Below are positions 28,577-38,582 of a stretch of 40,108 bases of DNA, one piece after another (position 1 is the first letter of the stretch; each line of letters begins with the position of its first letter). The notes under the pieces were generated by a model. The model saw nothing but the letters and a program-made list of their open reading frames with translations. It did no database searches and was not told the origin of the DNA. Source of the stretch: an uncultured Eubacterium sp. (GTDB taxonomy: Bacteria; Bacillota; Clostridia; Lachnospirales; Lachnospiraceae); assembly GCA_905236805.1 (NCBI GenBank), contig CAJOPH010000065.1:1-40108 (forward strand), given 5' to 3'. A program made the translations under genes and the position numbers.

Positions 28577-30625
28577 ATGAACAGGAGATATGAAGCCCTT
28601 CTGTCACCCCTCAAAGTCAGGGACGTGATATACAGAAACAGGATGCTTTCCACGGCGTCCACACCACATTTCCTTCAGGGAAAGGAGCCCTACCCCACGG
28701 AGAAGATCATCACGCATTTCGCGAACAGGGCCAAAAGCGGGGCGGCCGCCGTGTCGATAAACCATTTCCACACGGACGACATGCCGCTGCACGGAAGATC
28801 CATAGACAATCCCCCCTCGCATTTTAATCTCTACGACATAGAGAACGGCACCTGTCAGAACTACCTCTGTCAGCTGATAGACGCCATACACTTTTACGGG
28901 GCAAAGGCCAACGGCTACATCATGGCAGACCCCGCATGGCTTTCTCCCGACGGGGAAAAACCAGAGCCCCCCATGGGGCCGCCCCCCGGAATGGGACCAA
29001 AAGAGCCCGAAAGCACACAGACAGACTGGGCCCGTTCCGCGGAGGACGACAGTTTCTTTCAGATAGATATATCCTCCATCACCCGCGAACAGATGGATGC
29101 CTACATAAGCAACGTAGCCAGGGAGGCGTCAGACTTAAAGCGCCTGGGATTTGACATCATTTCCATGCACTGCTGCTACCGTCACAGCCCCCACGCAATG
29201 TTCGCGTCACCCCTTACGAATCACAGGACGGATGAGTACGGGGGATCCGTAGAAAACAGGAACAGGTTCCTTATAGAGATATTTACGGCCATAAGGAAGG
29301 AAGTGGGACCTTCCACCCCGCTGGAGATAATATACTCCGTATCAGAGCCCAAGGGCGGCTACACGGTGGAAGATACCATAGAGTTCGCAAAGATGGCGGA
29401 CGGTCTCATAGATATTTTGCATCTTCGTTCGGGGGACATGGATCCCCAGCACCCCCTGGGGTACACCTCCACGGAGGAGAATCCCGCTCCCTACTTGGAG
29501 GAGATGGGAAGGGTCACCAAGGCGGTGCATGACCTTGGGCTTAATATGGTGGTCGCCGCGTCGGCGGGCTTCCAGGATCCGGAGCTGGCGAACAGGGCGG
29601 TAGCCGAAGGAAAGGCAGACCTCATAGGCATGGCCAGGGCATGGATCAACAATACCGACTATGGAAAGAAGGTCTACGAAGGAAGGGGTGAGGACATCAC
29701 GCCTTGCATACGCTGCAACAAATGTCACGTGCCCTGCGGAAAGGATATGTGGAGAAGCTTTTGCTCGGTAAATCCTTTGGTAGGCCTAGAAGACAAGATT
29801 GAACGTATGGTCGACCCACCGAAAGATGTAAAGAAGGTGGCGGTAATAGGAGGAGGCGTAGCCGGCATGGAATACGCAAGGATCGCGGCGCAGCGAGGCC
29901 ACAAGGTTACACTCTTTGAAGCCACAGACGCCTTAGGAGGCCAGCTAAAGCATGCGGATCACGCATCCTTCAAATGGCCGTTAAAGCAGTTCAAGAACTG
30001 GATGATAGCACAGATGGAAAAGGAAGGGGTCGATGTAAGGCTAAATACAAAGGTCTCCCCCGAAGAAATAAGGGACGGGGGATATGACGCCGTGGGCATA
30101 GCCGTAGGGTCTGCCCCGGCAGCGCCTTATCTTCCCGGAATAGATGGAAAAAACGTGCATTATGCCTCACAGATATACGGCGAGCCCGCCAAGAGCCTCT
30201 CTGATGACATCGTTATGATAGGAGGCTCGGACGTCGGCGTGGAGACGGCGCTTTACCTGTGCGAGATGGGCAAGAAGGTAAAGGTGCTTGAAATGGCATA
30301 CGAACTCATAGAGGACGCGCCCCATGCACACTACAAGAACATGGTGCACAATTATTGGATGGCGCAGCCTAATTTCTCATTTCAGTGCGGCGTAAGGGTC
30401 ACCTCCATAGACGAAGGGGGCGTAAATTACACAGACCATAAGGGAAAAGAAGGCAGAGTCAAATGTACGGACGTTCTTTTGGCCATGGGCTCAAAGCCCA
30501 ATACCGATCTTGCGTTCTCCTTTGCGGACACTGCCCCCATCGCCCATGTCCTTGGGGATTGCGAGAGGGCATCCGCGGTGCAGAGGGCCATGAGGACGGC
30601 ATTTTCACTGGCATCTACCCTGTAA
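28577..30625 (+). CDS. old-yellow-enzyme / 2,4-dienoyl-CoA reductase-like FMN + Fe-S + FAD oxidoreductase, divergent active site
   Basis: OYE-like N-terminal barrel (TNHRTDEYGGSVENRNRFLIEI), Fe-S ligands CIRCNKCHVPCGKDMWRSFCSVNP, Rossmann VAVIGGGVAGMEYARIAAQRGHKVTLFEA and IVMIGGSDVGVETALYL. Confidence 0.88.
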   Translation: MNRRYEALLSPLKVRDVIYRNRMLSTASTPHFLQGKEPYPTEKIITHFANRAKSGAAAVSINHFHTDDMPLHGRSIDNPPSHFNLYDIENGTCQNYLCQLIDAIHFYGAKANGYIMADPAWLSPDGEKPEPPMGPPPGMGPKEPESTQTDWARSAEDDSFFQIDISSITREQMDAYISNVAREASDLKRLGFDIISMHCCYRHSPHAMFASPLTNHRTDEYGGSVENRNRFLIEIFTAIRKEVGPSTPLEIIYSVSEPKGGYTVEDTIEFAKMADGLIDILHLRSGDMDPQHPLGYTSTEENPAPYLEEMGRVTKAVHDLGLNMVVAASAGFQDPELANRAVAEGKADLIGMARAWINNTDYGKKVYEGRGEDITPCIRCNKCHVPCGKDMWRSFCSVNPLVGLEDKIERMVDPPKDVKKVAVIGGGVAGMEYARIAAQRGHKVTLFEATDALGGQLKHADHASFKWPLKQFKNWMIAQMEKEGVDVRLNTKVSPEEIRDGGYDAVGIAVGSAPAAPYLPGIDGKNVHYASQIYGEPAKSLSDDIVMIGGSDVGVETALYLCEMGKKVKVLEMAYELIEDAPHAHYKNMVHNYWMAQPNFSFQCGVRVTSIDEGGVNYTDHKGKEGRVKCTDVLLAMGSKPNTDLAFSFADTAPIAHVLGDCERASAVQRAMRTAFSLASTL

Positions 30626-31300: not shown

Positions 31301-31329
31301 TTGATTTTTTGTAAAAAATGGTATAAAAT
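31301..31329 (+). promoter_or_regulatory. candidate promoter of the FMN-binding cluster
   Basis: TTGATT (31301-31306) - 17 nt - TAAAAT (31324-31329) in an AT-rich intergenic region. Confidence 0.45.
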
Positions 31330-31343
31330 AAAGCGAAATTTTT

Positions 31344-31375
31344 AACGGTGTCTAAATGGGTACCGTTTGTTTTTT
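31344..31375 (+). terminator. terminator/attenuator-like hairpin in the leader
   Basis: AACGGT (31344-31349) / ACCGTT (31362-31367) followed by TGTTTTTT, upstream of the 31440 ATG. Confidence 0.4.
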
Positions 31376-31439
31376 AGGATAAGGTTAGATTTAACTAACT
31401 TTATTGACGAAATATCAATCAATAAAGGAATCGGGTTTT

Positions 31440-32813
31440 ATGAAAAATATCCTTAAGTATTTGAAGATCTTCATTCCGGGAACGGTATCGGTGTGCCTTG
31501 TGGCAGCAGGCGCCCATGCTTTTTGTGCGCCCGACCTTCCTGAAAGGGAAGTCTATGCGTACTCCCTGCTGGACGGGAGCCTTTCCGCGGATGGCGCATC
31601 GTCAGGGGACGCGGTGAACTCGGCCATCAAAGCATCCAAGAAAAAGGTAAAAAGAAAAGAAAAACCCGCACAGAAAAATTCCGGTGAGATTCCTGCTATA
31701 TCTAAGGTGGCAGAGGATTCAAACGCCACATATAAGGACGGGACGTTCAGGGGGTCTGCGCAGGGCTACGGGGGGACGACCACCGTGGATGTGACCATAA
31801 AGAATTCTAAGATAAAGAATATTTCGGTGGTTTCCCATCACGATGACGCCTCGTTTTTTTCAAAAGCCAAACCCCTGCTTTCCCTGATGGTAAAGGAGCA
31901 GACCACGAATGTGGATGCGGTCTCGGGAGCCACGTTCAGTTCGGCCGGGTTGATAGGAGCCACAAGGGCGGCATTAAACAAAGCGAGGGTGGACGGTAAG
32001 GCGGATGAGAGTGACTCATCAGACAAAACGAGCAAAGATTCAGATGACAAAAAATCCAATTCCACGAAAAACAATACTTCCACTTCCATAGAGCTCCCCT
32101 CGAACGCCTCCCCCGGGAATTTCCCGTATGAAGATGGAACCTATGAAGGAGTCGGTGAAGGCTTTGGGGGCGACGTGGTGGTGGATGTGACCATCAAGAA
32201 TCAGACCATCATCGAGATTTCGGTGAAGGAAGCCGCGGATGAGACGCCTGAATATTTTTCAAAAGCCGTTAAAATCCTGGATGCGATATTGGAAAATCAG
32301 GACACGGACGTGGATGCCGTATCGGGAGCCACGTTCAGCTCGAACGGGATACTGGATGCGATAGCGGATGCGCTTTCCAAGGCGCCTAAGATACAGGATA
32401 CCGGTGAATCCGAAGACAAGACAGATACATCCGAAGACGAAACAGGGACGGACGTAGCCGGAGACGCGTCCGGGACTGCACAGACACCTTCCTGTCTTTA
32501 CAATGATGGAGAATATACCGTTACCGTAAGGTGCCGTCCCGATGAGGATGAAGATTTTGATGAATATGAGATAACATTGACCATCACCCTGGAGAATGAC
32601 CATATCACGGATATCTCCGTAGATGATATTTCAGACATGTCAAACAAAGCCTTTGTAAACATGGCTCTGAGGGGAATGAAGGATGGCTTTTTAGGGATAT
32701 CTGATTTAACGGCATATGACGATTCGGCGGTGGATGCGGTTTCCGGCGCCACCTGTTCTTCGGAGAGCCTCAAGGAGGCCGTAAAAGAAGCGTTGGATGA
32801 GGCCGCAAAATAA
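31440..32813 (+). CDS. secreted/anchored protein with three FMN-binding (flavinylation-site) domains
   Basis: N-terminal hydrophobic segment; VDAVSGATFSS twice plus VDAVSGATCSS; domain starts such as YKDGTFRGSAQGYGGTTTVDVTIKN and YEDGTYEGVGEGFGGDVVVDVTIKN. Confidence 0.9.
   Translation: MKNILKYLKIFIPGTVSVCLVAAGAHAFCAPDLPEREVYAYSLLDGSLSADGASSGDAVNSAIKASKKKVKRKEKPAQKNSGEIPAISKVAEDSNATYKDGTFRGSAQGYGGTTTVDVTIKNSKIKNISVVSHHDDASFFSKAKPLLSLMVKEQTTNVDAVSGATFSSAGLIGATRAALNKARVDGKADESDSSDKTSKDSDDKKSNSTKNNTSTSIELPSNASPGNFPYEDGTYEGVGEGFGGDVVVDVTIKNQTIIEISVKEAADETPEYFSKAVKILDAILENQDTDVDAVSGATFSSNGILDAIADALSKAPKIQDTGESEDKTDTSEDETGTDVAGDASGTAQTPSCLYNDGEYTVTVRCRPDEDEDFDEYEITLTITLENDHITDISVDDISDMSNKAFVNMALRGMKDGFLGISDLTAYDDSAVDAVSGATCSSESLKEAVKEALDEAAK
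31723..32371 (+). repeat. tandem duplicated FMN-binding domain coding units 1 and 2
   Basis: Similar nucleotide blocks, e.g. GTCTCGGGAGCCACGTTCAGTTCG (about 31921) and GTATCGGGAGCCACGTTCAGCTCG (about 32320). Confidence 0.75.
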
Positions 32814-32852
32814 AAACGGCGATTTCTTAACAGTTCTTAAGGGGTTAAAGCG

Positions 32853-33350
32853 GTGAAGCAGTTTCTGACAAGATTCATAAATGTGTTTGCGGTGGTTTTC
32901 GCAATCGTTATTTTTAATAAATACGTAGTGGAAGAAACTGAAGGCTACGAGGATAAGAAGGAAAGCATAGAGGCATACAATTCCATCGTGGAGGAGCGCC
33001 TCAAAGCTGATATCGAGAGGCAAAAAGAACTGGAGGGTTCCTCATCGGGGGACGCGTCCGGTAATATGGGCGCGGATTCATCGTCCTTTGACGGCGTTTA
33101 CGAAGGCACCGGGGAGGGCTATGGCGGTTCCGTCACGGTTTCTGTCACCATATCGGGAGGCAAAATATCAAATATAGACATAATATCCGCAAAGGATGAG
33201 GATCCTGAATATTTTTCCATGGCGGTGGGACTTACGGACAAGATCATCTCCGGCCAGACCACGGATGTTGACACTGTTTCGGGTGCCACGTTCTCTTCTT
33301 ATGGGATCATAGACGCCGTAAATGACGCGTTGGGGAATGCCGGGCTATGA
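32853..33350 (+). CDS. membrane-anchored single FMN-binding domain protein
   Basis: N-terminal TM FINVFAVVFAIVIFNKYVV; GVYEGTGEGYGGSVTVSVTISGGKISNIDII; VDTVSGATFSSYGIIDAVNDAL. Confidence 0.9.
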   Translation: MKQFLTRFINVFAVVFAIVIFNKYVVEETEGYEDKKESIEAYNSIVEERLKADIERQKELEGSSSGDASGNMGADSSSFDGVYEGTGEGYGGSVTVSVTISGGKISNIDIISAKDEDPEYFSMAVGLTDKIISGQTTDVDTVSGATFSSYGIIDAVNDALGNAGL

Positions 33351-34216
33351 ATAAAAAGAGGGCGCTTAGGGCCGAGGTTACCAGGCATGTGATCCAGGTC
33401 GTGTTTTTCATACTTGCTCCCGGGCTTTATGCCGGCGCGTTTTCAGGTGTCAAATATATCTTTACGCAGGTAGGGGCGGGAGCCATGATAGAAAAGAATT
33501 CCTTCATGGTGACGCTGGTTCTTCTATGCGTATTTACCATGATCTTTGGAAGATATTTCTGCGGCTATGCCTGCGCTTTCGGGACTTTGGGAGACTATGT
33601 CTTTTTGTTAAGAAAGGGCTTTGAAAAGCTTATTAAGAAAAAGCTTCCCAAGATTCCCCAAAAAGCGGGGAAGGCTTTGGATTACTTAAAATACATTATA
33701 CTTTTAGCTATTATTGCGGCATGTTTTGCGGGTGTGTACGACAAGGCTCGGGGGTATTCGCCCTGGGATGTTTTTTCCATGTTAAGGGCTTTGAAGCCAA
33801 GGCTTGAGGGATATGGCCTGGGAGTGGGACTTATGATCGCGATCCTCGTTGGAATGGTTTTCCGGGAGCGTTTTTTTTGCAGGTTTTTGTGCCCAATGGG
33901 CGCGGTATTTTCCCTCCTTCCCATGAACCCGTTTTTTACCATCAGAAGTGACAGGAAAAAGTGCCTGCCGAAGTGCAGGTCATGTATAAATAATTGCCCC
34001 GCGAATCTTCAGGTCGGGGATGACAGGACACAGCAGGATTGCTTTCAGTGCGGACAATGCGTGAACAAATGCCCGAAGAAGCATATCACGTCGGGATTTG
34101 GGGGAAAAGCACCGGATGAATCTGGCTTTAGTGGTGCAAAAGGAGATGAACCTTGGTGGATGATAGGAAGGGGTGTGCTCCTGGCAGGCTTGTGGGCATA
34201 TTTTTTGGGGATTTAA
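33347..34216 (+). CDS. NapH/NosR-like 4Fe-4S membrane polyferredoxin
   Basis: Multi-TM with FCGYACAFGTLGD, FFCRFLCPMGAVFSLLP, CLPKCRSCINNCP, CFQCGQCVNKCPKKHI; ATGA overlap with upstream gene. Confidence 0.88.
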   Translation: MNKKRALRAEVTRHVIQVVFFILAPGLYAGAFSGVKYIFTQVGAGAMIEKNSFMVTLVLLCVFTMIFGRYFCGYACAFGTLGDYVFLLRKGFEKLIKKKLPKIPQKAGKALDYLKYIILLAIIAACFAGVYDKARGYSPWDVFSMLRALKPRLEGYGLGVGLMIAILVGMVFRERFFCRFLCPMGAVFSLLPMNPFFTIRSDRKKCLPKCRSCINNCPANLQVGDDRTQQDCFQCGQCVNKCPKKHITSGFGGKAPDESGFSGAKGDEPWWMIGRGVLLAGLWAYFLGI

Positions 34217-34272
34217 ATCAGCTCGGTATACCCGATCATATTTTTTTTGGATATGGGTTAGTCTGATAGGAC

Positions 34273-34301
34273 TTAGGAACTTATTGTTCTATAGTTCCTA
34301 A
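34273..34301. repeat. 9 bp inverted repeat
   Basis: TTAGGAACT - 11 nt - AGTTCCTAA, perfect. Confidence 0.75.
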
Positions 34302-34365
34302 GGTTCTAAATGACTAATTTTTATCATATATAGCTATATTTTTTATTGTAGGAGGAAAACATTTC

Positions 34366-36270
34366 ATGAAAAACATTTTCACGAAAAGGCTGTTAGCATT
34401 CGGGCTATCAGCTGCGATGGCGCTTCCATTTGCGCCGGTTTCAGGACTTACCGCAAATGCGGCAGACGGGGATTTCTACGTCCTCATGAACATCCCGTAT
34501 GAGCAGTTCTATGCTGCGGAGATCAATGACGGTGATAATACAGTGGATGTGGTGACCTCTGCGACATCAGACTTTAAGACAAACAACTACAGTCTGTTTG
34601 CGGGTTCCTATCATGTGAACATTGACTCGGACGGAGACGGGACAAACGACAAGAGTACCATAAACGGGGTTACCTATCCCGTCAAGGTTCCGGCGGGGAC
34701 AGACCTTTCTAAGTATACCAAGGTGGATGATAGCACCACGGCCACGGCAGAGTGGAGCGTACATGGGACTACCAGCTCGCAGAATCTTGAGGGAAAGGAT
34801 TGCCTTTTCACGGAAGGCGATTACGCTTACTATGAATATGCCGCAAATGAGACTCCATCTGTTTATAAAGAGCTGACGGTGGAATCGGACGGATCTTTGT
34901 CTTTTTCCAAGTCGAATGCGGAGGTTACCGAAGGGAAGGATTTTGAATGCAAGCTTGATACGGAATCCAAATACGGGGACTACCAGCTTTCCCTTTCAGG
35001 GGACGGTTTCTCCTTTGCTACCGTTTTAGGCGTGGTGGTTTCAACGGCGGAGCGGGATTACGCGATGCGTCACCTCGAAAACATCTGGAGGGGTGGGTCA
35101 TCCATAGCATGGACCACGGGCTTTACGCTTCAGGAATCACATGGCAACGACATTTCCTGCATGGCGGATTACTACAAAGACATAATGGGGCAGACCATCA
35201 AAGCCATCACCGTGATAGGAACAGATTCTGATGGAAATTATGTCACGGTTAAGTATACCGCGGACAATTATGTGGCAATAAAAAATGGCGCGTCTGTTTC
35301 TGTTACATCTGAAAAGGTTACGGATGCGGATGCATCGGTAGACGTAGCCGTTGCAGGTGACAATGACGGCGTATATACGGTTTACAAAATAGATGGCGAA
35401 GATGTTACCGTAACGGACGGAAAAGCCGATATTTCCACTTTGGGACTGTCAGTGGGATCACATACGCTTTCAGTGGTTGACAGCGATGCGAAATATGCTG
35501 TCATCTCTACGAAATTCGTGATAAATACTGACAAAGTGGTAGCCGCGTATGACGCGTCATCAAAGACCGTGACAGCGGCAGAGGGAGTATCCGATGAGGA
35601 ATTCAAGGCATTTGTTTCCGGGATTTCTTCCGTAGCCATATCTTCGGCATCTGTTGAGGAAAAGACTTATAACGCAGATGGTAAGGGAGCGGTTACCGTA
35701 ATAAATGAAGATGGGTCTATTGACCTTTCCAAGACGGATTTTGCGGAAACGACGGACAATGAGCTGACATTCAAGGTTTCTTCCACGGGATATCCGGACC
35801 TGACCTTTACTTATACCGTGAAGGAAGATGAAGCTTCGCCTACGGGTGAGACTCCCGCACAGGGGGGAGACAGTACGGGAAGCGGGACGGGAACACAGAC
35901 GCCTGCTGACGGGACACAGACATCTACTACAGGGACTACCGAGCCTGCCGCAGGGTCTTCAGGAGGTGATACGAGTCAGGGAGAGGCCGAGACTTCCTCA
36001 GAGCTTTCAAAGGCTACGATCTCTGTTAGCAAGACGACCGTTAAGAAGGGCAAAAAGACTGTCATCAAGGTTACATCGGATTCGGGCGCAAAGGTGACAG
36101 TCAAGGCTGCAAATAAGAAGGCAAAGAAAGTAAAGATCAAAAATGGAAAGACCGCAAAGATCACGTTTACAAAGAAGGCAGCTAAGGGAACCTATAAATT
36201 CAAGGCAACATCGCCTGCTACGTCAAATTACAAGAAAGCGGCAAAGACCTTCAAGATAAAAGTAAAGTAA
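34366..36270 (+). CDS. secreted Tp47-like (penicillin-binding Tp47 domain family-like) surface protein with Lys-rich C-terminal domain
   Basis: Signal peptide MKNIFTKRLLAFGLSAAMALPFAPVSGLTANAA; YVLMNIPYEQFYAAE...VDVVTSATSD...GVTYPVKVP pattern recalled from Tp47-like proteins; Thr/Gly linker; C-terminal KATISVSKTTVKKGKKTVIKVTSDS. Confidence 0.65.
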   Translation: MKNIFTKRLLAFGLSAAMALPFAPVSGLTANAADGDFYVLMNIPYEQFYAAEINDGDNTVDVVTSATSDFKTNNYSLFAGSYHVNIDSDGDGTNDKSTINGVTYPVKVPAGTDLSKYTKVDDSTTATAEWSVHGTTSSQNLEGKDCLFTEGDYAYYEYAANETPSVYKELTVESDGSLSFSKSNAEVTEGKDFECKLDTESKYGDYQLSLSGDGFSFATVLGVVVSTAERDYAMRHLENIWRGGSSIAWTTGFTLQESHGNDISCMADYYKDIMGQTIKAITVIGTDSDGNYVTVKYTADNYVAIKNGASVSVTSEKVTDADASVDVAVAGDNDGVYTVYKIDGEDVTVTDGKADISTLGLSVGSHTLSVVDSDAKYAVISTKFVINTDKVVAAYDASSKTVTAAEGVSDEEFKAFVSGISSVAISSASVEEKTYNADGKGAVTVINEDGSIDLSKTDFAETTDNELTFKVSSTGYPDLTFTYTVKEDEASPTGETPAQGGDSTGSGTGTQTPADGTQTSTTGTTEPAAGSSGGDTSQGEAETSSELSKATISVSKTTVKKGKKTVIKVTSDSGAKVTVKAANKKAKKVKIKNGKTAKITFTKKAAKGTYKFKATSPATSNYKKAAKTFKIKVK

Positions 36271-36310
36271 AAGAGGTCGGATTCGCTGAATAAAGTTGAT
36301 TTAGCTGACA

Positions 36311-36348
36311 AAGGAGGAAGGCGCAGCCTTCCTCCTTTTATCTTTTCT
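36311..36348 (+). terminator. Rho-independent terminator after the Tp47-like gene
   Basis: AAGGAGGAAGGC-GCA-GCCTTCCTCCTT followed by TTATCTTTT. Confidence 0.85.
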
Positions 36349-36398: not shown

Positions 36399-36464
36399 TG
36401 TGATGCTAGGACGGGATTGAAAGATTGACATTCCCAAAATAATACTCGAATGGAGGAAATAGTA

Positions 36465-38582
36465 ATGAAAAATGAAAAAGAAATGTCCGATGCCGGAAAG
36501 ACAGATGCCGTAGAAAAGGCTTCAAAGGGTGAGAGGACTAAGAAAGCCGCAAAGTCAAAGGGAAAAGGTCTTGGTATCAGCTGGAAGATCCTGATCATGT
36601 CCATTGGATGCATGATCATCTCCCTCGTGGTGTCTATGCTGGTTTCCACGAATACGTCTTCCGAAAAGCTGGTACAAAACGGCAAGGACAATCTGACTTC
36701 GCTTGCGGTGTCGAAGGGCAATTCCCTCGAGGATTTCATAGTGGCACAAAAGACGCTGGTTGGCTCCGTGGCCAGGTCTGAGGATGTCAAAAATATCTGC
36801 AGGAAGTACGCTAAGGACGGTGCCGCCGATTCCGGTCTGCAGGAGGCACTCAATGAGCATTTGGCACAGATAAACACCGATTCGGGGAATCTCTATGAGA
36901 ACTTTTTCGTCACCGGTGGATCTGAGATAATCGCGGCTTCCCTAGGAGCCGATTCCTTGGGACATGACATTGGCGAAGAAGAACTCTACTCTGATTGTGT
37001 GACCAACGGATTCCGCTATGGTCATGCCGTATCTCCGGGTACGGGGTCACCCACATATGAGATAGCATATGCCATATATGACGATGATGGCACCTTCTTG
37101 GGTGTTGCGGATGCGTCGATTGACCTTGGCGCCATGTCGGAACAGATCATTAACGACGATAAGTATGATGTCAAGCTGTTTACTCCCGATGGTGTGGTGA
37201 TAGCGTCTCCCGATGCGGAGGCCATCCTGACCTTTGACATGAAGGAGGTTGATGCCGAAGGATGGGAGGACACCATAAGTACAGGCACGGGAAATGCCGA
37301 CTTCATAGATCCTTACACGGGTGAGCTTGGCTACACGGGATTTTTCGTATCAGAAAACTTCGTTACGGAAGTAACCGTTATGGACAGCACATTTGACGGA
37401 GCGAGGAATGAGCTGCGGTTTAAGGCTATTATGGTGATGGTTATCGCGGCGATCGTAGCGTCCGTCATTATCATATTATTGTCCCGGAGTATCGTGCGTC
37501 CCCTTAAGAAAGCAAGCAATACCATCACGAAGCTTATCTCCGATATAGAGGCGGGAAACGGGGATCTTCGTACCCGTATCGAGGTCAGGAGCCGTGACGA
37601 GATAGGCATGATATCTGCCAACGTCAATAAGTTTATCGACACCCTTCAGGGCATCATGGACATAATGGGCAGCAATTCCGGGAGGCTTAGCTCCATATCT
37701 TCGAATGTGCGCGATTCGGTCATAGCTACAGAAGATGAGATAAACAATGTCTCATCCACGATGGAACAGATGTCAGCATCCAGTGAGGAGACCAGCGCAT
37801 CCCTCATCAAGGTGGCAGAGGATATAAATGTCGCGGTCGGGCTGGTAGAGCAGGTGCATGACGAGGCAAAGAACCAGAGTGAGGCATCAGAAAAGATGAC
37901 GGCAAAGGTTGAGAAGATAAGTGCCGATGCCATTGCCGAGAGGAATCGCAGTGATGAAGAGGCCGGAATCTTTGTCGATCAGCTCGAGGAGAGCATAAAG
38001 AAGGCCGGCGCGGCCGACAGGATCATGGATCTTACCGGTGACATCCTTAATATTGCGGCCCAGACCAACCTCCTTGCCCTTAACGCTTCCATCGAGGCGG
38101 CCAGGGCCGGAGAGGCAGGCAAGGGCTTTGCCGTAGTCGCTGAGGAGATAAGACAGCTCGCTGACAATTCCAAAGAGACCGCCAACAATATTCAGGAGAT
38201 CTCCGGAGGCGTGGTTGATTCCGTGAGGGATCTGTCGGACAAGGCGAATATCATCGCCGACAAGCTCAAGGAGTCCAACCAGAGCGGCCGAGAGAGCATC
38301 GAGAACCTGGCACAGGCATATCGCGAGGATATCAGCGTGATGGCCGAGTCCATGGACAAATTCGAGGACAGCACCAATCGGATGGCGGATGCCATGGAAG
38401 ATATCCGCGAGGCTGTCGATGCCGTGTCCATAGCTGCCGAGGAGACGGCAAAGGGCATCACGAATATTACCCAGTCGACCTCCGATATCGCGGGCAGCAT
38501 GTCCACCATCAATGCCGAAGCCAATGACAACCTCAGCATATCAGGCGAGCTTCAGGAGGAGGTTTCTAAATTTAAGTATTGA
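36465..38582 (+). CDS. methyl-accepting chemotaxis protein (Cache-like sensor, HAMP, MA domain)
   Basis: TM pair; [60 protein letters not shown] hairpin tip; ATG 36465 has SD GGAGG. Confidence 0.94.

Follow-up and report, generated by a model that had tools for sequence, protein, structure and literature searches.

The block of four genes at positions 31,301 to 36,270 of a 40,108-nucleotide stretch from an uncultured Eubacterium sp. (contig CAJOPH010000065.1, assembly GCA_905236805.1, family Lachnospiraceae; the whole stretch is called the window here) probably encodes a flavin-based extracytosolic electron conduit, for which we infer the flavinylation, the electron direction, the donor, the localisation and the acceptor. 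By their sequences, genes 1 to 3 are a cluster of known type, for NapH-like extracytosolic electron transfer based on flavinylation. The new element is their partner, gene 4, which codes for a secreted relative of the Treponema pallidum 47-kDa antigen (Tp47), and sequence comparison indicates that proteins of this family probably form the outer end of flavin wires, on the cell surface. An earlier note on this DNA had proposed that a NapH-like polyferredoxin feeds a chain of covalent flavin mononucleotide (FMN), possibly with the Tp47-like protein as a participant. The polyferredoxin and the FMN chain are well supported by domains, conserved Cys residues, gene order and an ApbE encoded in the genome, and the participation of the Tp47-like protein is backed by synteny, co-occurrence and fusions to FMN_bind domains. 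The genes, domains and motifs concerned are as follows.

31440-32813, + strand: gene 1, 457 aa, predicted to be secreted, with several FMN_bind domains (three stretches matching Pfam PF04205, E 2.6e-40)
31764-31979, 32160-32378 and 32568-32798, + strand: FMN_bind domains 1-3 of gene 1 (PF04205)
31914-31934, + strand: ApbE motif DAVSGAT, gene 1 domain 1
32313-32333, + strand: ApbE motif DAVSGAT, gene 1 domain 2
32733-32753, + strand: ApbE motif DAVSGAT, gene 1 domain 3
32853-33350, + strand: gene 2, 165 aa, one FMN_bind domain behind an N-terminal anchor (PF04205, E 6e-17)
33270-33290, + strand: ApbE motif DTVSGAT, gene 2
33347-34216, + strand: gene 3, NapH-like membrane polyferredoxin, 289 aa (PF12801)
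34366-36270, + strand: gene 4, predicted secreted Tp47-family protein, 634 aa (profile, and AlphaFold model against 1O75)
34546-34566, + strand: ApbE-like motif DVVTSAT in the gene 4 N-domain, a conserved alignment column (Thr67 codon 34564-34566)

The four adjacent same-strand genes of the earlier note are confirmed at these coordinates, with the ATG at 31440 favoured over a TTG at 31404 as the start of gene 1 and with an ATGA overlap between genes 2 and 3 (gene 3 starts at 33347, gene 2 ends at 33350). The four flavinylation sites it had named, of the form D-[AT]-V-S-G-A-T-x-S-S, are also present, three in gene 1 and one in gene 2. The broader motif D-x-x-[ST]-[GS]-A-[TS] is found 142 times in the proteins of the loci we fetched, compared with 1.8 expected from shuffles. 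The extracytosolic placement of gene 1 is read from an N-terminal signal or anchor, and with more than one FMN_bind domain (three) its sequence places it among the multi-flavinylated proteins; its nearest solved structure is domain 1 of CbFMN4 (8p2b, E 2.6e-11). The canonical motifs of genes 1 and 2, together with one ApbE in the genome, make it possible that both proteins carry covalent FMN.

Gene 3 matches PF12801 (Fer4_5) at 52 bits against a cut-off of 22, and adjoins the FMN_bind genes 1 and 2 in the manner of NapH-like flavinylation systems. Its match to TIGR02163 has an E of 1e-22, yet it falls below the cut-offs of the curated NapH models NF007013 and TIGR02163 (81 bits versus 213, and 79 versus 234). 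The Cys motifs reported previously, CGYAC, CRFLCP and two CxxxCxxC/CxxCxxC clusters, are all in place, and the 12 Cys involved (C72, C76, C178, C182, C206, C210, C213, C217, C232, C235, C238 and C242) are kept in 55-56 of 56 aligned orthologues. Hydropathy gives several transmembrane helices, four of them clear and a fifth weaker.

The source genome (1.70 Mb, 102 contigs, 99.3% complete) supplies the remaining flavinylation machinery. There is no apbE in the window, as the earlier note stated, and the search it suggested elsewhere in the genome found one, a single unlinked lipoprotein ApbE on another contig. In addition, the genome encodes a PF07456 EetB homologue and an overlapping gene that resembles NusG_II/EetA, a reading made from resemblance and position rather than from a profile match. 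EetB, which usually lies beside EetA, binds the substrate in the exporter of flavin adenine dinucleotide (FAD) needed for Listeria flavinylation (PMC9973259). Given the ApbE and this EetB/EetA pair, flavinylation of genes 1 and 2 is possible. No UbiA-family prenyltransferase reached the cut-off in this genome, whereas all 14 control genomes were positive, which makes a quinol donor unlikely and points to reduced ferredoxin. Thus, of the donors proposed earlier, quinol or a cytosolic reductant, the former is weakened, with reduced ferredoxin the likelier choice. The genome holds six FMN_bind domains, four in the cluster, one in RnfG and one in a lipoprotein. The gene for an FMN_bind lipoprotein lies between ABC-exporter genes and a fumarate-reductase-like trio (locus L089, from this genome's own contig C72, 4338-9393).

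Gene 4 is a genuine Tp47 relative, judged from sequence profiles and a predicted structure. A profile of diverse members of its family (A2) retrieved the T. pallidum 47-kDa antigen (PDB 1O75, E=3.5e-5), and the AlphaFold model (predicted local distance difference test, pLDDT, 88; predicted template modelling score, pTM, 0.83) matched 1O75 with Z=16.1 over 277 residues, the next-best row scoring 8.4. Both profile and fold therefore bear out the Tp47 likeness noticed earlier. The Pfam models PBP-Tp47_a and PBP-Tp47_c gave no direct match to the gene 4 protein, indicating that it is a divergent member; they match other domains of orthologous surface proteins (loci L059 and L067) at E 1e-65 to 1e-75, and the orthologous proteins combine PBP-Tp47 domains with FMN_bind, FIVAR and Shr-like HID domains. 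The description of gene 4 as a secreted protein agrees with a signal peptide, judged by eye. The Tp47-like domains span about residues 30-490, and a Lys-rich C-terminal module common to other proteins of the same genome occupies residues 499-634 and is perhaps a surface-retention module. This module (window 35860-36270) has three further copies in the genome, on C20, C23 and C9, at 46-62% identity. The N-domain modelled alone (pLDDT 88) had 1O75 as its only structural match (Z 6.1), with no FMN_bind entry. The idea that this domain is a permuted FMN_bind domain was dropped, Tp47 being its sole PDB match at Z>=2, and weak matches of gene 4 to cupredoxin, ExtJ and BiPBP_C were taken as chance.

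The association of Tp47-family proteins with flavin systems recurs well outside the window. Among relatives of the same family, 21 loci retain the order of multi-FMN protein, single-FMN protein and polyferredoxin; in 19 of them apbE sits directly upstream, and 18 have a Tp47-family gene in the vicinity. In one locus beyond these 18 (L083) the Tp47-family gene lies on a different contig of the same genome. The four genes are thus co-conserved, as the earlier note had asked, and several of the relatives' clusters also contain NusG_II and EetB genes. Over 299 genomes of the family, the co-occurrence of polyferredoxin and Tp47 is strong (20/6/9/264, Fisher p 2.7e-19, a value somewhat inflated by shared ancestry). 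ApbE, present in 264 of the 299, is too common to test linkage alone. A query for the Tp47 family, which used patterns unrelated to the N-domain motif, yielded 77 named loci. FMN_bind, polyferredoxin or ApbE occurs in the fetched stretch (within 10 kb) of 63 of these, a count that includes FMN_bind domains inside the Tp47-family protein itself, and in 30 of the 35 with long flanks. A genome-wide check of 20 Tp47 loci lacking separate neighbouring system genes found ApbE and FMN_bind in every one (20/20). Both kinds of domain share one chain in 48 proteins, although some loci were fetched twice and distinct cases are fewer; one such fusion, of 2134 residues, carries four canonical FMN sites and a Tp47-like domain (L172, 8506-14910). 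In a second arrangement, a Tp47-like lipoprotein lies directly beside a membrane FMN_bind protein (L084, L171, L173, L174, L175 and L092), which in L084 is MsrQ/Ferric_reduct-like. The polyferredoxin and the membrane FMN_bind protein are thus two kinds of membrane partner with the same outer protein. A phylum-wide search for PF14889 gave no match and its controls were equally blank, so it is uninformative. The same Tp47/FMN/polyferredoxin clusters were also seen in records labelled Collinsella, Coriobacteriia and Eggerthella (L111, L130 and L161), which reflect either inter-phylum transfer or mixed assemblies.

We propose that the NapH-like membrane protein would take electrons from reduced cytosolic ferredoxin at its two [4Fe-4S] clusters, and that these electrons would cross the membrane through the intramembrane CxxxC centres of gene 3 to reach the membrane-anchored FMN protein, gene 2. 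From the FMN of gene 2 they could pass from one to the next of the three covalent FMNs in the secreted gene 1 protein and on to the Tp47-family surface protein, which would hold the wire at the cell wall and either dock an extracellular acceptor or pass electrons to it. EetB/EetA would bring the FAD for this chain out of the cell, and the unlinked lipoprotein ApbE would attach it.

Among 134 covered copies, the Tp47 N-domain motif reads D (132), any residue, [VFY], [ST] (130), [SRT], A (133) and T (133, plus one Ser); T67 is invariant in a 69-row alignment (A3), and the corresponding stretch of T. pallidum Tp47 in the alignment is DAVSRAT. Tp47-family proteins might therefore carry flavin themselves, with the N-domain an ApbE substrate that holds FMN on the Thr of D-x-x-[ST]-[STR]-A-T, in which case gene 4 would be redox-active and Tp47 a new flavin-acceptor fold. 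The ApbE site is D-x-x-[ST]-G-A-[ST], and a Gly to Ala change in one known substrate left about 50% flavinylation (PMC12052999). DVVTSAT departs from this site in having Ser for Gly, while the D, [ST], A and T are kept, and the missing Gly, found at its motif position in none of the 134 copies, weighs against a flavin here. However, FMN_bind domains of the same loci that lack the Gly (SRAT, SNAT, SSAT, SEAT and others) retain the Thr almost without exception, so the Thr seems separately constrained, and ApbE is always present in the Tp47 genomes checked. Some Tp47 copies beside membrane FMN_bind proteins read SSVT or SSPT in place of SSAT, and one reads SSSN. Moreover, the N-domain has no detectable FMN_bind fold, the literature searched held no link between Tp47 and flavin or flavin electron transfer, and Tp47 is not among the ApbE-substrate domains named in the available portions of the 2021 and 2024 surveys. 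Because the Gly is never found and the domain is not FMN_bind-like, we regard flavinylation of gene 4 as unlikely, though the constrained Thr keeps it from being negligible. Slightly more doubtful still is the wider proposal that the Tp47 family supplies a class of ApbE flavin acceptor that is new and distinct from FMN_bind, capping surface covalent-flavin wires, and that T. pallidum Tp47, which has long counted as a penicillin-binding protein, descends from this redox family and is possibly flavinylated at DAVSRAT by TP0796 (Ftp/ApbE). Separately, where a Tp47-family protein begins with an FMN_bind domain (L064, L121 and L131 are examples), that domain has its Gly replaced (SRAT, SEAT, SNAT) and its Thr retained. 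A plainer role, to which we give somewhat less than an even chance, is that gene 4 does no more than anchor the wire to the cell wall or bind ligands as its scaffold, with the motif either structural or part of a Tp47-type ligand/penicillin site. Large orthologues with FIVAR, Shr-like HID and Ig-like domains fit such a scaffold, as do the report of Tp47 as a penicillin-binding protein and penicillinase (PMC11057208) and the Lys shortly after the Thr in most copies, a TxxK-like arrangement. This Lys is missing in Tp47 itself and its closest copies (DAVSRATHGHG), so a TxxK site cannot explain the common motif, and the FMN_bind fusions suggest a more intimate role than anchoring.

Several observations weigh against the conduit as a whole or against gene 4 as part of it. 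A strong hairpin parts gene 3 from gene 4; in the one further genome of the genus that was examined, nothing matched the Tp47 family and the cluster is represented by a fused FMN-polyferredoxin alone; apbE is unlinked in the source genome but linked in most relatives, the link having been either lost or never present; scavenged quinones could still be used despite the absent UbiA; and no terminal reductase is linked to the cluster. The hairpin and the 149-base gap between genes 3 and 4 could mean that gene 4 is an unrelated secreted protein merely downstream of flavin genes, but synteny, co-occurrence and fusions over dozens of genera and with two membrane-partner types make this very improbable. 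It is also unlikely, although less remote, that electrons flow inward through the conduit, or that its function is repair or iron uptake and not respiration-like electron disposal. NapH-like systems also pair with oxidases (PMC8238504), and the HID domains of orthologues hint at heme-protein binding, while no linked gene for an oxidase or for a transporter of iron or heme was noticed next to gene 4.

The proposed conduit can be compared with several known systems. NapH-like flavinylation-associated electron-transfer systems were described by Meheust et al. in 2021 (PMC8238504) and have the same design, a PF12801 membrane Fe-S protein beside separate FMN_bind proteins with the same proposed path. 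The present cluster differs in its unlinked apbE and in its conserved Tp47-family partner, Tp47 being absent from the text of that paper. Gene 1 resembles the multi-flavinylated proteins of Meheust et al. and CbFMN4/SaFMN3 (PMC10339131) in being apparently secreted with three FMN_bind domains, but here comes with three linked partners: polyferredoxin, anchored FMN protein and Tp47-family protein. As in the Listeria extracellular electron transfer system (EetA/EetB/FmnA/FmnB/PplA), the genome has EetB and ApbE homologues and encodes putative extracytosolic covalent-FMN proteins. The Listeria system uses an Ndh2-quinone route, whereas here there is no UbiA-family quinone enzyme and the NapH-like polyferredoxin would replace that route. 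Gene 4 shares with T. pallidum Tp47 its fold and the N-domain motif DxV[ST]xAT, but has a signal peptide and not a lipobox, an extra C-terminal module, a location in a flavin cluster and too much divergence for the Pfam Tp47 models.

Genes 1 to 3 are of known type. NapH-like flavin systems and multi-flavin proteins have so far been outlined only, and in the Tp47 family there is now a specific candidate for what sits at the outer end of the wire. Our survey ties Tp47 to flavin systems in gut Lachnospiraceae (Coprococcus, Blautia, Fusicatenibacter and Eubacterium ramulus) and in Coriobacteriia-type genomes. The N-domain motif is itself a new point, including its T. pallidum form, and through the flavin link the unsettled physiological role of Tp47, a major syphilis antigen, becomes testable.

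The signals flanking and dividing the block are as follows.

31301-31329, + strand: promoter-like TTGATT-17-TAAAAT (consensus scan, weak)
31344-31367, + strand: terminator-like hairpin upstream of gene 1, just downstream of the promoter-like site (fold z -1.3)
about 34250-34325, + strand: long U-tract hairpin in the gap between genes 3 and 4 (-30 kcal/mol, z=-5.2; more stable than every shuffle)
36310-36338, + strand: intrinsic terminator at the end of the block (stem of 13 pairs, fold z=-4.3)

The closing terminator had been noted before and is sound, while the hairpin between genes 3 and 4 was omitted from that description. The latter is possibly an internal terminator or attenuator, and its strength suggests that gene 4 may be transcribed at its own, different level. 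The promoter-like site and hairpin at 31301-31367 are either the end of an upstream unit or a leader (attenuator) of the flavin cluster. An Rfam scan of the window found tRNAs only. Upstream of the cluster, 28577-30625 encodes a BaiCD/bilirubin-reductase-like flavoenzyme of the Old Yellow Enzyme (OYE) type, under the cut-offs of named families, and directly 3' of the cluster, 36450-38582 encodes a methyl-accepting chemotaxis protein with a Cache-like sensor domain.

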